This document shows positions 5,548-54,647 of a stretch of DNA of 57,656 nt, piece after piece. Position 1 is the stretch's first letter; each line of letters starts with the position of its first letter. Below the pieces are notes generated by a model, which searched no databases, had not been told where the DNA came from, and saw only the letters and a list, made by a program, of their open reading frames with translations. The DNA lies in assembly GCA_001512965.1 (NCBI GenBank), contig LFRW01000053.1:1-57656 (forward strand). The letters are read 5' to 3'. This DNA is from Methanomicrobia archaeon DTU008. Lineage in GTDB: Archaea > Thermoplasmatota > Thermoplasmata > Methanomassiliicoccales > Methanomassiliicoccaceae. A program made the translations under genes and the position numbers.

Positions 5548-6267
5548 ATGACTATCATCAGATGCGAGAACTTGATCAAGACCTACCAGACCGGCACGGT
5601 GACGGTCGAAGCGCTCCGAGGGATCGACCTCGGGATCGAAGAGGGAGAGATGGTGGCCATAATGGGCCCCTCCGGATGCGGCAAGACCACCTTGCTGAAC
5701 TGCCTGAGCGGCATCGATGATGCCACTTCGGGAAGGATACTGATCGAGGGCCTGGACCTTACGGCGATGAGCGATAGCGAGAAGACCGCATTCCGCGCTT
5801 CCCGCATGGGCTTCATATTCCAGTTCTACAACCTTCTTCCCGTTCTGACCGCAGTGGAGAACGTCGAGCTGCCGCTATTGATCGCCGGAAAGGCCGCGGG
5901 AGAGGCTAGGAGCAAGGCGCTCTCCCTGCTGGACGCGGTCGGACTCTCCCATCGGTCACAGCAAAGGCCCGCTTCCCTCTCCGGCGGGGAACGTCAAAGG
6001 GTCACCATCGCCAGGGCTCTCGGCAACACTCCTGCGATCGTATGGGCCGATGAGCCGACGGGCGACCTGGACAAGAAGACCTCCGATGAGATCGTGGCCC
6101 TGATGCGTCGTTTGAACAAGGAGAACGGACAGACGTTCGTCATAGTCACACATGATCTCGAAGTGGGTGAAAGGTGCGACCGCATCATACGAATGCGAGA
6201 TGGAAGGATCATCGATCGGAACGGTCGAGCCAGCGACATCTCTGATGAGATAAGGGAACTGGGGTGA
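5548..6267 (+). CDS. ABC transporter ATP-binding protein, MacB/LolD type
   Basis: 239 residues from the ATG at 5548. A GTG at 5518 in the same frame is less likely because it precedes the predicted transcription start. Walker A is GPSGCGKTT (40-48), the signature is LSGGERQR, Walker B with the D-loop is '[10 protein letters not shown]', and the switch His is in 'VTHD'. This set is typical of the LolD/MacB/FtsE branch, which powers FtsX-type permeases rather than carrying substrate through a channel. The partner permease begins five bases after this stop. The exported or extracted substrate cannot be read from sequence. Confidence 0.92.
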
Positions 6268-49217: not shown

Positions 49218-51323
49218 TCAGCCGATGATGTTGCGCGTCCTGTCCCTGAGCTCGCCGAGCTTGCCCTTGTTCCATCCCCTGATCTTGGAGAAGAATCCGG
49301 TGACACGAGTTATGCCTTCCACGTCCGGCGAACTGCAGCTTGGGCAGGTCTCCCTCAGGCCGCGATGGGTGCGGCCGCACGACAGGCAAGAGGTGAACTC
49401 CGGCGAGAACGCGATCTGGGCGTTCTGAGTGGTCTCGAAGGTCTTCTTCACGAAGGCCGCGATGCTCTCCGCAGGCGGCTTGGACTCTCCGAGCCAGACA
49501 TGGGTCATGGAGCCAGCGTCGATGAGCGGATGGAATCTGCCCTCCATCTTGACGCGGTCTATGGCCGAGACGTCCGCTCCCACGTTGAGATAGGTGGAGT
49601 TGGTGTAGTAGATCTCCCCGGTGCTCTTGTTGCCCCTGATGACGGTGGGAGCCTGCAGCGGGTAATACTTCATGTCCAGCTTGGCGAAGCGGTATGCGGT
49701 CGACTCGGCCGGCGTCTGCTCCAGGGGCATCTTGAGACCATACTCGTTCCCGATGCGCTCCGCCTCTTGCTTCATGTAGCTGATGATCTTGAGGCCGAAC
49801 ATCATGGCGTCCTTGCCCTCATGCATCTGCTTGCCGAGGTGATACTGCACCATCTCGTTCAGGCCGACCATGCCGATCAGGAAGGAGGATTTATCGATGC
49901 GGTAGTACGGTTCCCCGTCCAGGTTCATGGTCAGCAGGGATAGCGGGCCATCCTTCCCCAGGTTCAACAGCTGACTGATGAACTCCCTCTTCTGGATGTG
50001 CGCCTGCGCAGCCATCTCGATTCTCTGGGTGAGGAGCTGGAACAGCTTGGTGTCATCCTGGTGGGCCTCATAGGCGATGCGAGGCAGATTGATGGTCACG
50101 TTCTGCATGGCCGAGTAGCGCATCTTCCATGGCGTCTTGGCGTCCTCCAGGTCGCTCTCTTCCAGTTTGAACGACAACCGGCAGCACTCCGAGATCTTGG
50201 CCGTTCCGCCACGGTCGAACACGAAGTATGTGTTGCCCTTCTCCGCCGCGACTCTGGAGATCTGTTCCAGGAACTCCTCGTGCCCTTCCGTCTGGAAGAA
50301 CTTGTCCGTCATATGGACATTGGGCTTGGGGAAGAAGAACGGCCTTCCCATCGCGTCGCCTTCCTCATAGACGTCGAACAGCGCCTTGACGAACCTCTGC
50401 GCCTCCGGCAGGTAATCATCGTAGGTCTTGCCGGTGAACTCCCCGCCTGGACCTATGGCCGGGACCCCGGAGAAGTGATCGGGGATCTCCCAGTACAGGT
50501 TGAGGTCGGAGAAGATGGACTGGCCGCCGCGAGCGACCGCCTGCTGGGCGAACTCGTAGACGAGGATCTGGGCCAGCTGCTTCATGCGCTTGTCGTCGAC
50601 ACCGACCAGGTAAGGCGCAAGGAACAGGTTGAAGGCGTCCCATCCTATCGCCCCTGCGAAATGGCCCTGCAGCGCTGCCGAGAACTTGATGATCTGCTCT
50701 ATCAGAACCTCGGGGTGCTTGGCGGGCTTGGCGATGCTCAGCGCGTTCGGAAGGTTCAGTCCGAACTTCTTGACGTATTCGATGGACTGTCCGGAGCAGT
50801 AGGGGCGGTCGACCATTCCAAGGTCGTGCAGGTGGATGTCCCCGCGCATGTGGGCGTCCGCCAGATCCTGCGAGAACACCTCGAGGAGCGCGAACTCCTT
50901 CTTGATGTTCTCCGCCAGCGTCAGGTTGGTGGCCTCGGGGCCGTGAGGAACGTTGGCGTTCTCCTTGTTAGGCGCCATGATGATCTGTCGGGCATCATAG
51001 AGCGGGACGCCAAGTCGGGTGTGCTGCTTGCGTATCTTCGATAGTCCGTACTCCACCAGCTTGGCGTTGGTGAGCTCACGGATGAGCGGGGCGGTGACGA
51101 ACTCGATCTCGAGCTCGGCGATCATCTTCTCAACTTCCCGGGCGACGATGGAGGCGGCATCCTCGCTTATTGAAGTCTCCCTCAATAGGGCATCATAGAT
51201 CTTGACCCGGTCCCACTTCTTGAGCTCTTCATCAGATGTCCTGACGAACAAAGTAAGCTCTGTCGACTCCCTGCTGTCCGGGATCAATTCTGTCGTTTTA
51301 TGTATCGATTCTGTAGCCTTCAT
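49218..51323 (-). CDS. nrdD: Anaerobic ribonucleoside-triphosphate reductase
   Basis: 701 residues. NrdD makes deoxyribonucleotides using a glycyl radical and works only without oxygen. An ATP-cone-like regulatory region lies at ~20-110, followed by the ten-stranded barrel. Near the C-terminus four cysteines (C646, C649, C660, C663) bind the structural zinc, and 'RVTGFFSK' carries the radical Gly676. The activating enzyme NrdG is not in this window. A minus-strand TATA element (attaaacg on the plus strand, 51341-51348) suits a leaderless start. An inverted CTGGTAA/TTACCAG pair lies upstream. Confidence 0.96.
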   Translation of the reverse strand: MKATESIHKTTELIPDSRESTELTLFVRTSDEELKKWDRVKIYDALLRETSISEDAASIVAREVEKMIAELEIEFVTAPLIRELTNAKLVEYGLSKIRKQHTRLGVPLYDARQIIMAPNKENANVPHGPEATNLTLAENIKKEFALLEVFSQDLADAHMRGDIHLHDLGMVDRPYCSGQSIEYVKKFGLNLPNALSIAKPAKHPEVLIEQIIKFSAALQGHFAGAIGWDAFNLFLAPYLVGVDDKRMKQLAQILVYEFAQQAVARGGQSIFSDLNLYWEIPDHFSGVPAIGPGGEFTGKTYDDYLPEAQRFVKALFDVYEEGDAMGRPFFFPKPNVHMTDKFFQTEGHEEFLEQISRVAAEKGNTYFVFDRGGTAKISECCRLSFKLEESDLEDAKTPWKMRYSAMQNVTINLPRIAYEAHQDDTKLFQLLTQRIEMAAQAHIQKREFISQLLNLGKDGPLSLLTMNLDGEPYYRIDKSSFLIGMVGLNEMVQYHLGKQMHEGKDAMMFGLKIISYMKQEAERIGNEYGLKMPLEQTPAESTAYRFAKLDMKYYPLQAPTVIRGNKSTGEIYYTNSTYLNVGADVSAIDRVKMEGRFHPLIDAGSMTHVWLGESKPPAESIAAFVKKTFETTQNAQIAFSPEFTSCLSCGRTHRGLRETCPSCSSPDVEGITRVTGFFSKIRGWNKGKLGELRDRTRNIIG

Positions 51324-51410
51324 ACGATATCACATGCCTCATTAAACGATCCAAACTATGGCAAACGCCTCTATCTAGCCGTTAGTTTAAGGGCTTTTTT
51401 CGAACTTGAC

Positions 51411-51463
51411 CTGGTAAATATCGATGGACATTTTCGTCCATTTCACCGAACATCTGTTACCAG
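51411..51463. promoter_or_regulatory. Nested inverted repeats upstream of nrdD
   Basis: CTGGTAA (51411-51417) and TTACCAG (51457-51463) are a perfect inverted pair. Between them ATGGAC (51424-51429) and GTCCAT (51436-51441) form a second perfect inverted pair. The outer boxes are the same word as the TTACCA repeats before the divergent gene at 51818. The site lies roughly 65-120 bases upstream of the predicted nrdD TATA box. Confidence 0.45.
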
Positions 51464-51557
51464 TTTTGTTATCGGACATGCCCTCCAGGTCCCTATCTTT
51501 CCTCACGTCATGTTCGTATTAAGTCTATCGACAAGCAATTCAATTCTAAGGGATGAT

Positions 51558-51689
51558 ATGGGAGAAAGCTCGGACCCTTCGGAGGCGGCGGAAGTCCTGC
51601 ATCATGTGCGGAAGGATGCTGGCCACAACCGGGCATCATTTTCGATCCATGCGATCATGGCGTTCCTGGAGCGATCCGAGGTCGCCTAA
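51558..51689 (+). CDS. Possible 43-residue protein (doubtful)
   Basis: The frame from ATG 51558, after AAGGGATGAT, encodes an acidic then helical peptide with two His-containing blocks ('VLHHVRKDAGHNRASFSIHA'). It lies in an otherwise empty region. It has a reasonable ribosome-binding site, but no recognised family, and short open frames of this length are common by chance. Confidence 0.25.
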   Translation: MGESSDPSEAAEVLHHVRKDAGHNRASFSIHAIMAFLERSEVA

Positions 51690-51778
51690 TGATATCGCTT
51701 GCGCCCATCTTTCGATCAAGGCCAATGCGATGGCAGATTCCCGGGGAATGGTATAACTCTCAGGAAATGTAAGGGAAG

Positions 51779-51816
51779 CTATATATTTACCACCTTTGTT
51801 ACCATATTGATTACCA
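51779..51816 (+). promoter_or_regulatory. TATA box and three TTACCA boxes at an exact 12-base period
   Basis: The TATA element ctatatatt (51779-51787) is followed by TTACCA at 51787, 51799 and 51811, the last one touching the start codon at 51818. The 12-base period puts the boxes on roughly the same face of the helix across the transcription start, an arrangement suited to an autoregulatory operator. Confidence 0.55.
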
Positions 51817-51817
51817 G

Positions 51818-52408
51818 ATGTTCAATCCAGACAAGCTCATGAAGGACCTGATCTATGACATTTTACGCACCGAGGGGATGTCCATCAGCGCATTGTCAAG
51901 GGCGCTCGAGGAGAGAGGTGTAAGCATCCACCGACTCATACTGACGGGATACCTCAGGGCGTTGACGGACCTCAATGAGCTGAAGGAGAAGGAGGTACCT
52001 CCCGCCAAGATATACATCCCGGTGAGGGCAAAGGACAAGGATGTGTACGAGCTGGTGGGACAACATGCAAGGAGCATCTGCTCCGGGGATGAGGCGGATC
52101 GATTGATATTGTACGCCCTCAACCGACTTTTCAAGCGCCCGGTCTTTCAGGAGGAGCTCAAGCATGCCGGCGTCAGGAACATGTCCAATTTCCGGCAGGC
52201 GAGCGAGGACGAGAGGAACGAGGCAAGGAAGGTGTTACTGCGCCTCAAGTGGAAGGCCCCTGAGACGAGCCCCGCGTTCATCGCCGACCCGCCGAAGGAC
52301 CCTGCCATGTTCGAGAACCTTCTCTGCAACATCATGTGCGATAAGCTGGACTATGCAGCCCTAGTGATGGAGAGCAAGCAGACGAAGCTCATCCCAGACA
52401 CCCGTTGA
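51818..52408 (+). CDS. Putative winged-helix transcription regulator next to nrdD
   Basis: 196 residues. The N-terminal ~60 residues have a helix-turn-helix/wing pattern: 'LMKDLIYDILRTEGMSISAL' (in parts), 'LSRALEERGVSIHRLILTGY' and then a strand 'KIYIPV'. The remainder is helical with single cysteines at 'SICSGDEADR' and 'LLCNIMCDKL', which could sense metal or redox. No family is recognised; NrdR features (N-terminal zinc ribbon, ATP cone) are absent. It is divergent from nrdD and its promoter carries the TTACCA boxes. A DNA-binding role is inferred. Confidence 0.6.
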   Translation: MFNPDKLMKDLIYDILRTEGMSISALSRALEERGVSIHRLILTGYLRALTDLNELKEKEVPPAKIYIPVRAKDKDVYELVGQHARSICSGDEADRLILYALNRLFKRPVFQEELKHAGVRNMSNFRQASEDERNEARKVLLRLKWKAPETSPAFIADPPKDPAMFENLLCNIMCDKLDYAALVMESKQTKLIPDTR

Positions 52409-52469: not shown

Positions 52470-53471
52470 ATGAACTTGGGCACCCTGGTATCCGAGATAA
52501 GGAGCCATCCAGGAGTTACGAGGAAGGCACCGATATCTGACGTCATCTCCTTCTTCCCCAACATGTCAGCGGATCATGTCCTGGCATCCTATGGCGAGGA
52601 CGCGGCCGTGGTCGCCCACAACGACGACGCATTATTGTTGGCGGCCGATGGAATAATGGAGTCGCTTCTCAAGGCCAACCCGTTCAATGCAGGTTATTAC
52701 GCCGTACTGGTCAATATCAATGACATAACTGCGATGGGAGGGATCCCGCTCGCCCTGGTGGACATCATCTCGATGAGGGACGAGAAGGTGTGCGCTCAGG
52801 TGATGAGGGGGATGGAGGCCGCGGTGTCCAAGTTTGGCGTGCCCGTCGTGGGCGGACACACCCATCCTGATTGCGCCTACGATGCCATCGACGTCGCCAT
52901 CCTCGGTACGGCAAAGAAGGACGAGGTCATCTACAGCCACACCGCGCGGTCAGGGGACGACGTGATAATGGCCATGGACCTTGACGGACGCTTCCCGCCA
53001 ACCATCTCGTTCGCATGGGATACCACCTCCCATAAGGATGGCGAGACCTGCCGGAGACAAATGCGGGTGATGAACGAGATCGGGAAGAGAAGGCTTGTCA
53101 ACTCGGGAAAGGACATCTCAAATCCTGGCAGCATCGGCACGCTCGGCATGCTGTTGGAGACGAGCGGCAAAGGGGCCGTGGTGGACATCAGGAAGGTCTC
53201 CGCCCCTGCGGATGTCGATCTATCGCAATGGCTAAGGGCTTACCAGGGTTGCGGTTTCGTCCTCACCTGTCCGCCGGAGAATTCGCAGAAGGTGATCGAC
53301 ATATTCGCCGAGGCGAAGATCACGGCCTCTGTCGTCGGTACGGTCAACGATACCAACAAGCTCGTCCTCCAGATGGACGGCGAGAGCGCCGAGCTGTTCG
53401 ACTTCACGGTGGACAAGATAACCGGATGCGATCCGTCGAAAGTGCCTGCATCGAAGAGAAGGAAGTGCTAG
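52470..53471 (+). CDS. Methanogenesis marker protein 2-like (AIR synthase-related) protein
   Basis: 333 residues from ATG 52470. 'YGEDAAVV', 'LLLAADGIMESLL', 'VNINDITAMGG', 'VGGHTHPDCAYDAIDVAILG' and 'GKDISNPGSIGTLGMLLE' match methanogenesis marker 2, a member of the AIR synthase/selenophosphate synthetase fold with ATP-binding Asp and Gly residues. The exact reaction is unknown; it is found mainly in methanogens and some relatives. It is the best single clue that this genome is close to methanogens. The stop codon overlaps the 3' end of the SRP RNA gene on the other strand. Confidence 0.88.
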   Translation: MNLGTLVSEIRSHPGVTRKAPISDVISFFPNMSADHVLASYGEDAAVVAHNDDALLLAADGIMESLLKANPFNAGYYAVLVNINDITAMGGIPLALVDIISMRDEKVCAQVMRGMEAAVSKFGVPVVGGHTHPDCAYDAIDVAILGTAKKDEVIYSHTARSGDDVIMAMDLDGRFPPTISFAWDTTSHKDGETCRRQMRVMNEIGKRRLVNSGKDISNPGSIGTLGMLLETSGKGAVVDIRKVSAPADVDLSQWLRAYQGCGFVLTCPPENSQKVIDIFAEAKITASVVGTVNDTNKLVLQMDGESAELFDFTVDKITGCDPSKVPASKRRKC

Positions 53472-53776
53472 GCCAGGGAGGTTGCCGCTCGGATTGGTGC
53501 GGGTGGTCCTGCAGATTCCTTAGCCCCGCACCCCCATGAGCGTTGGTAATCCACGGTAAGGCTGCTCCCGTCAGGGCCTAACCCGCTCCCCGTGACCATG
53601 TCATGGCGCGCGACCCTCCGACCGCACCTCCATGACGCTTCCAACCCCATAGGACAGGGCCTCATCGTCACCTGCAGGGCCCGCACCGCTCCGGTTACGA
53701 CGTCCTCCCCTGTCACCCCCGCTATCGACATCGCGGTGTATAAGGGCGCGCCGAACGTCCCGGTCAAGCCTAGCGC
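53465..53776 (-). ncRNA. ffs: Signal recognition particle RNA (archaeal 7S/SRP RNA)
   Basis: About 312 bases, read on the minus strand, a normal archaeal length. The helix 8 core is TTAGGCCC-TGAC-GGGAGCAGCC (in parts), the SRP54-binding site, with loop bases at plus-strand 53570-53573. The Alu side has GCTAGGC near the 5' end pairing with GCCTAGC near the 3' end (plus-strand 53768-53776 with 53465-53473). Helix 5 is confirmed by GGTGCGGG/CCCGCACC (53680-53687 with 53496-53503), CTGCAG on each side, and GGGAGG/CCTCCC. A minus-strand TATA box lies at 53797-53805, about 25 bases before the 5' end. The ends are approximate. Confidence 0.92.
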
Positions 53777-53953: not shown

Positions 53954-54232
53954 TCAATAACGCTTCGAGGTCTTCTCCCCGCCCCGAGTGCAATAATACA
54001 CGTTGCGGAAGCCGAACTCGTCATGCACGGTGCACTTCCTGCAGATGCATTTCAGCTCTCGTTGGATGCAATCCGGTGAGCGGCCGTAGAAGCAGAACAT
54101 CTTCTCGTCCCTATCACCTGCACATAATGTGTACGAGGGACATTTCGGACACGAGCACCGGCCACGCATGGCCGACAGTTCGGCCTTGCGCTTCTCCGGA
54201 GGCAATCGGTTCAGGTCGTCAAGGCGAGCCAT
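53954..54232 (-). CDS. DUF2769-like Cys-rich protein, copy 1
   Basis: 92 residues. 'CSCPKCPSYTLC', 'FCFYGRSPDCI' and 'CICRKCTVHDEFG' place about ten cysteines in a pattern that suggests two zinc or iron-sulfur sites; it ends 'VYYCTRGGEKTS'. It is a tandem paralog of the next gene upstream on this strand (54255-54548). DUF2769-type proteins occur in methanogens and are uncharacterised. It lies just upstream of the SRP RNA promoter on the same strand. Confidence 0.85.
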   Translation of the reverse strand: MARLDDLNRLPPEKRKAELSAMRGRCSCPKCPSYTLCAGDRDEKMFCFYGRSPDCIQRELKCICRKCTVHDEFGFRNVYYCTRGGEKTSKRY

Positions 54233-54254: not shown

Positions 54255-54548
54255 TCATTTTTCCTGTCGCATCGACCTTTCGGACCCGGCCGTGCAGAAA
54301 TAGATGTTGTTAAGGCCAGCCTTGTCTGCGATCGGGCAGTCAGGGCAGATGCAGCCTTGCTCGGACTGTATGCACTCCGGACTCTTCCCCAGGAAGCAAT
54401 ACAGCCTTTCGGACTCCTTTGCGGCGCATTCGGTGTAGGTCGGGCAGTCGGGACAGATGCATTCGCCTTTCATGCGAGCGATCTCGTTCTGACGGTCCTC
54501 CTCGGACATCGCGTTCAGCTCGCCGAGGAGTTTCTCGAAGGCATCCAT
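54255..54548 (-). CDS. DUF2769-like Cys-rich protein, copy 2
   Basis: 97 residues from ATG 54548; a TTG at 54566 lies too close to the predicted transcript start. The minus-strand TATA-like ttaaatacg (54577-54586) is about 30 bases upstream. 'CICPDCPTYTECAAKES', 'LYCFLGKSPECIQ' and 'GCICPDCPIADKAGL' align block by block with the downstream copy; the stop of this gene is 22 bases before that start. Conserved 'SPxCI' and 'CICPDCP' are the strongest family markers. Confidence 0.87.
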   Translation of the reverse strand: MDAFEKLLGELNAMSEEDRQNEIARMKGECICPDCPTYTECAAKESERLYCFLGKSPECIQSEQGCICPDCPIADKAGLNNIYFCTAGSERSMRQEK

Positions 54549-54647
54549 GGTTCTATCGGTTGACAAGAGCCTTGGGCGTATTTAATAATGAAGGATGCAT
54601 CTTGATCCTGATTTTGGGAAAAGCATCAAACATCACGGGAACCATAT

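Follow-up and report, generated by a model that had tools for sequence, protein, structure and literature searches.

Every cell must match the supply of DNA building blocks to replication, and most bacteria and some archaea encode NrdR (TIGR00244), a repressor specific to ribonucleotide reductase (RNR). The locus described here raises the question of which protein controls RNR in an archaeon without NrdR. It lies on the 57,656-nt contig LFRW01000053.1 of DTU008, a member of the Methanomassiliicoccales (phylum Thermoplasmatota), the whole of which is referred to as the window. The first-pass annotation had proposed that the product of an uncharacterized gene at 51818 binds TTACCA boxes, represses itself and controls the neighboring nrdD as a regulator unrelated to NrdR, and had named a canonical NrdR in the same genome, with its known boxes before nrdD, among the findings that would count against this proposal. 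No TIGR00244 match above cut-off was found in the window's genome, ruling out NrdR as the actual regulator.

The class III (anaerobic) RNR gene nrdD (49218–51323, minus strand; 701 aa; PF13597, TIGR02487) is divergent from the gene for the candidate regulator (51818–52408, plus strand; 196 aa), whose other neighbor in the window is methanogenesis marker 2 (mmp2). A methanogenesis operon comprising the regulator and mmp2 was rejected, as mmp2 has its own upstream TATA-like element and distant nrdD-regulator pairs (L159, L161) occur without mmp2. The window also carries an archaeal signal recognition particle RNA downstream of mmp2 (RF01857, 152 bits; 53466–53775, minus strand), overlapped by spurious ORFs, and two adjacent paralogous cysteine-rich small ORFs with repeated CxCPxCP motifs (53954–54232 and 54255–54566, both minus strand) that adjoin lipoyl synthase and are found in relatives too.

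In the 494-nt region between nrdD and the regulator gene, three direct TTACCA repeats start at 51787, 51799 and 51811, exactly as first annotated. They form a regulator-proximal operator (51787–51816, plus strand; unit TYTGTTACCA, 12-bp period) placed between the TATA box TATATATT (51779–51786, plus strand), recognized by its sequence, and the start codon at 51818; in relatives, a TATA-like T/A-rich stretch likewise stands immediately before the boxes. That the repeats are functionless products of chance deserves practically no credence. While the window shows no excess of TTACCA as a word (15 copies against 9.7 expected, with at least 15 in 10 of 100 shuffles), dinucleotide shuffling of the intergenic region, repeated 20,000 times, gave a mean of 0.19 copies and in no case five copies or two at 12-bp spacing, and conservation of the pair across the phylum, described below, refutes chance. 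Throughout the 1.76-Mb genome, TTACCAN6TTACCA starts at 51787 and 51799 only. It is also very improbable that the repeats represent an RNA leader element or a promoter quirk instead of operators: although those on the regulator side lie in or beside a short leader, the repeats at nrdD and at the class II gene nrdJ of relatives stand upstream of BRE/TATA in either orientation. A search of the intergenic region for structured RNAs and riboswitches matched no Rfam family, and that reading was dropped.

On the nrdD side, an inverted pair had been annotated, CTGGTAA at 51411–51417 and TTACCAG at 51457–51463, and these coordinates proved correct. A second pair nested within it (51424–51441) is likewise present where described, with ATGGAC at 51424–51429 and GTCCAT at 51436–51441, but is not conserved as a pair; it was the weakest element of the original observation and was rejected as part of the operator. 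Absent from the earlier annotation, the TTACCA at 51457 opens another 12-bp pair, TTACCAGTTTTGTTATCG (51457–51474, plus strand), the distal part of the nrdD-side operator. The proximal part is the inverted box at 51411–51417 (minus strand; TTACCAG as read on the nrdD strand). Conservation points to a putative nrdD promoter with a BRE-like element GTTCGAAAAAAG (51394–51405, minus strand), ~6 bp from the proximal box, and a TATA-like element CTTAAAC (51385–51391, minus strand), ~65 bp before the nrdD start codon. Between the inverted boxes, the word GATGGACATTTT (51418–51445) recurs in either orientation within the family, reversed as AAAATGTCCATC in the Methanomassiliicoccaceae L007, L008 and L012, and is possibly the site of a second regulator.

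The outer inverted pair, ~44 bp apart, is shared by most of the genus and by part of the family. Across families, the make-up of the nrdD side varies while the word stays constant: the window's family combines an inverted box with one or two direct boxes ~44 bp away, family f2 an inverted box with as many as three boxes, spaced 12 bp from each other, 24 bp away, and short intergenic regions have a single inverted box between both promoters. A second 12-bp pair was present on the nrdD side in 19 of 26 long intergenic regions, and several of the remaining ones have boxes 24 bp apart.

Next to the regulator gene itself, the consensus TTAYCAN2TYTGTTACCA, counted as TTAYC-N7-TTAYC within 75 bp upstream of the homologue's start, preceded 93 of 121 non-redundant relatives as compared to 2 of 935 control windows, and 61 of the 64 non-redundant homologues with nrdD nearby, although shared ancestry means that such counts of boxes and families are not independent. 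The consensus TTAYCANRTYTGTTACCA begins directly after the TATA-like T/A stretch and ends near the start codon. Boxes, gene and nrdD co-occur across the order and beyond it, where 11 sampled genomes, from several families, have the divergent regulator-nrdD pair (G167, G175, G222, G237, G240, G336, G370, G373, G384, G423 and G453). Genome scans for the operator, which the first-pass annotation had recommended, returned RNR genes and little else: a genome usually has one or two sites, located at the regulator, an RNR gene or both, and a stricter form often has one match per genome, at the regulator gene, in genomes across the phylum. Extra matches in G009 and G011 fall between gene ends with no start codon downstream and were discarded, and one before a radical-SAM-type gene in G487 was treated as chance. 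The operator positions at regulator and RNR genes support control of nrdD, nrdJ and its own gene by the product of the gene at 51818.

An unbiased whole-genome scan for TTAYCNNNTYTGTTAYC in Thermoplasmatota lacking nrdD revealed a second operator site ~110–160 bp upstream of nrdJ in six genomes from two lineages (G483, G484, G492, G494, G487 and G488), all of which also carry the operator before the regulator, with no nrdD beside it. Similar pairs lie near nrdJ in G482 and G147, and variant pairs in G485, G486 and G496. Where nrdD and the regulator are 2–3 kb apart (G047, G079), each has its own box array, and in G264, with nrdD on another contig than the regulator, nrdD still has a pair. In family f11, repeats resembling TTTACCAWGTTNCTTATCA immediately precede the BRE/TATA of an unlinked nrdD of another type (~31% identical). 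At both nrdD and nrdJ, the boxes are followed after a few bp by a conserved block of BRE-like GTTCAAAAA and TATA, and GTTCAAAAA as found at the relatives' nrdJ promoters is related to the BRE-like GTTCGAAAAAAG of nrdD. Since the operator is found at these nrdD types as well as at nrdJ, the regulon appears to follow RNR irrespective of reductase class. It was the nrdJ sites in the whole-genome scan, the separate boxes where nrdD and regulator have moved apart and the lack of a box pair at two nrdD genes without the regulator, described next, that decided the interpretation.

Conserved boxes do not by themselves identify their binder, and another, unlinked regulator might occupy those at nrdD, nrdJ and the 51818 gene, with the role of the 51818 protein lying elsewhere. 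We regard this as unlikely: the boxes accompany the 51818 family through the phylum, even without an adjacent nrdD, and in two genomes without a regulator match (G160, G169) the same-type nrdD has no pair, the upstream sequence of a third such nrdD (G294) ending after 87 bp. The properties of the protein argue likewise for the 51818 product as the binder, as it is predicted to be winged-helix-like with a near-invariant putative recognition helix. AlphaFold2 models (mean pLDDT 86–87) comprised an N-terminal winged helix (residues 4–68) and a second helical, winged-helix-like domain (76–155). The confidently modeled N-terminal elements (helices 4–16, 23–32 and 39–51, strands 55–60 and 63–68) follow the H-H-H-strand-strand order of the winged-helix fold, and the putative recognition helix, HRLxLTGYLxALxD (38–51), is near-invariant among 71 diverse members. 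The fold prediction called for at the outset thus gave a winged-helix-like model without a significant fold match: the best Foldseek hit had an E-value of 0.0036, with none below 0.001, and the top matches were mostly winged-helix regulators. The 196-aa sequence matched no Pfam or NCBIfam family, and profile comparison gave no kinship to NrdD. A homologue is encoded by 80 of 150 near relatives and by 109 of 390 sampled phylum genomes. In a scan of ~85,000 bacterial and archaeal genomes, which reaches close to moderately close relatives only, the titles of the 80 matches listed were all Thermoplasmatota, Methanomassiliicoccales or Euryarchaeota MAGs.

NrdR is rare among archaea (PMC9110341), and TIGR00244 scored above cut-off in one of the 150 relatives. 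Among the 390 phylum genomes, NrdR was found in 44 and the new family in 109, and no genome had both (Fisher p = 3e-7, ignoring relatedness). We read this mutual exclusion as a swap of RNR regulators within the phylum, in which the new family would have taken over from NrdR or vice versa. In Thermoplasmatota with a true NrdR, nrdR commonly adjoins an RNR gene, such as nrdD or nrdJ (G316, G162, G170, G178, G150). The earlier statement that the 51818 protein is unrelated to NrdR and lacks its zinc ribbon and ATP-cone was borne out: besides the missing TIGR00244 match, its 196 residues contain no CxxC pair, let alone the two CxxC of a zinc ribbon, its alignment has no conserved cysteines, and neither the regulator nor the members of A1 gave a Pfam ATP-cone match (PF03477). 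A weak, sub-threshold ATP-cone match was found in NrdD.

Computation establishes that the operator repeats exist, are conserved and occur almost exclusively at regulator and RNR genes, and that this family and NrdR exclude each other. As a whole, we consider it highly probable that the 51818 protein, which has no kinship with NrdR, is a dedicated regulator of RNR genes, repressing itself and probably activating RNR. Most likely, it binds the TYTGTTACCA 12-bp direct repeats via its conserved N-terminal winged helix, and the repeats would seat several subunits head-to-tail on one stretch of DNA. As the boxes at its own promoter take up the whole stretch from TATA box to start codon, we infer autorepression, with protein bound over the start site blocking RNA polymerase. 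At the nrdD promoter, or that of nrdJ in lineages without nrdD, protein on boxes just upstream of BRE/TATA would activate RNR transcription.

The same regulator and regulon could instead repress RNR as well and thus be a functional copy of NrdR, which represses RNR and often its own gene too (PMC9110341); boxes by the BRE might then block TFB/TBP, or a loop might bridge the arrays at both promoters. The short (~170 bp) intergenic regions, with one box set between both promoters, and the f11 pair, which nearly abuts the nrdD BRE/TATA, are consistent with this alternative, but the boxes at nrdD and nrdJ lie upstream of BRE/TATA, unlike the repressor position at the regulator's own gene. Because this is the usual position of archaeal activators (PMC4158304), activation of RNR is probably the correct reading, by a modest preference, and repression is a serious contender that stays below an even chance. 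A fuller proposal, offered tentatively and falling just short of an even chance, is that an undescribed Thermoplasmatota family functionally replaces NrdR, follows the reductase whatever its class (two unrelated types of class III nrdD, and class II nrdJ), activates RNR, represses itself and senses the demand for DNA precursors without an ATP-cone.

Several genomes depart from this pattern. Regulator homologues in L250, L252, L254 and L264 directly adjoin purB (adenylosuccinate lyase), followed in L250 and L252 by a chlorite-dismutase-like gene, and families f12 and f13, with the regulator next to purB, have no box pair upstream of the regulator gene. In L148 and L151, the regulator is divergent from the intein-containing gene for the replicative helicase MCM; between mcm and regulator, L148 has a small ORF (5713–5988, minus strand) with nothing but an NrdJ-like C-terminal zinc ribbon (CPDCNWMLEREGRCLLCRSCGYSTC). 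Genera g10 and g19 have lost nrdD and kept the regulator, and their nrdJ is without boxes; in some cases, an array, made up in L141, L160 and L195 of three units like the nrdD-side operator, still lies ~100–130 bp upstream of the regulator. No clear operator was seen at nrdJ in the regulator-positive G006, G404, G476 and G457, and no 12-bp box pair upstream of the Methanomethylophilaceae-type nrdJ or the order's short NrdJ-like genes. The purB, MCM, g10/g19 and boxless-nrdJ cases suggest a wider role in replication or nucleotide metabolism, or operator drift.

RNR-specific control and winged-helix regulators are each of a known kind; their combination in a winged-helix-type RNR regulator, and its swap with NrdR, appear new. 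In the open-access full-text literature on archaeal RNR regulators, NrdR in archaea and RNR in Methanomassiliicoccales, we found no described archaeal counterpart of NrdR and no mention of this family. With a single gene, a single operator word and a well-defined target set, and with NrdR and the new family alternating in one phylum, the system offers an example, open to direct testing, of a core regulator replaced by a non-homologous one. It also presents a compact archaeal promoter where a single protein may be both repressor and activator, depending on box position.

Compared with known systems, the regulator resembles NrdR in its probable dedication to RNR whatever the class, in its probable control of its own gene and in often adjoining an RNR gene. 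It differs in having no zinc ribbon, ATP-cone or sequence match to NrdR, and in its operators: NrdR boxes are two palindromes ~three helix turns apart (PMC9110341), whereas here 12-bp direct repeats with at most one inverted box were found, those on the RNR side lying upstream of BRE/TATA. Winged helices of the PadR, SmtB-ArsR and Fur types gave no significant match over the whole regulator, although ~70 of its residues superpose on SmtB/PadR-like proteins at ~2 Å; residues 95–153 weakly matched the PadR protein TA0346 (3elk; E = 0.017), with no Pfam PadR match in the regulator, and the tandem-winged-helix proteins ScpB and RPC39 showed a weak likeness (TM ~0.25). From TrmB the regulator is set apart by the lack of a Pfam TrmB match, by its motif and by its target genes. 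Its likeness to TrmB/TrmBL1/Tgr, Ptr2 and TFB-RF1 would be that of bacterial-type DNA-binding proteins whose effect is set by site position relative to BRE/TATA, with upstream sites of TrmB-type regulators associated with activation and downstream sites with repression (reviewed in PMC4158304).
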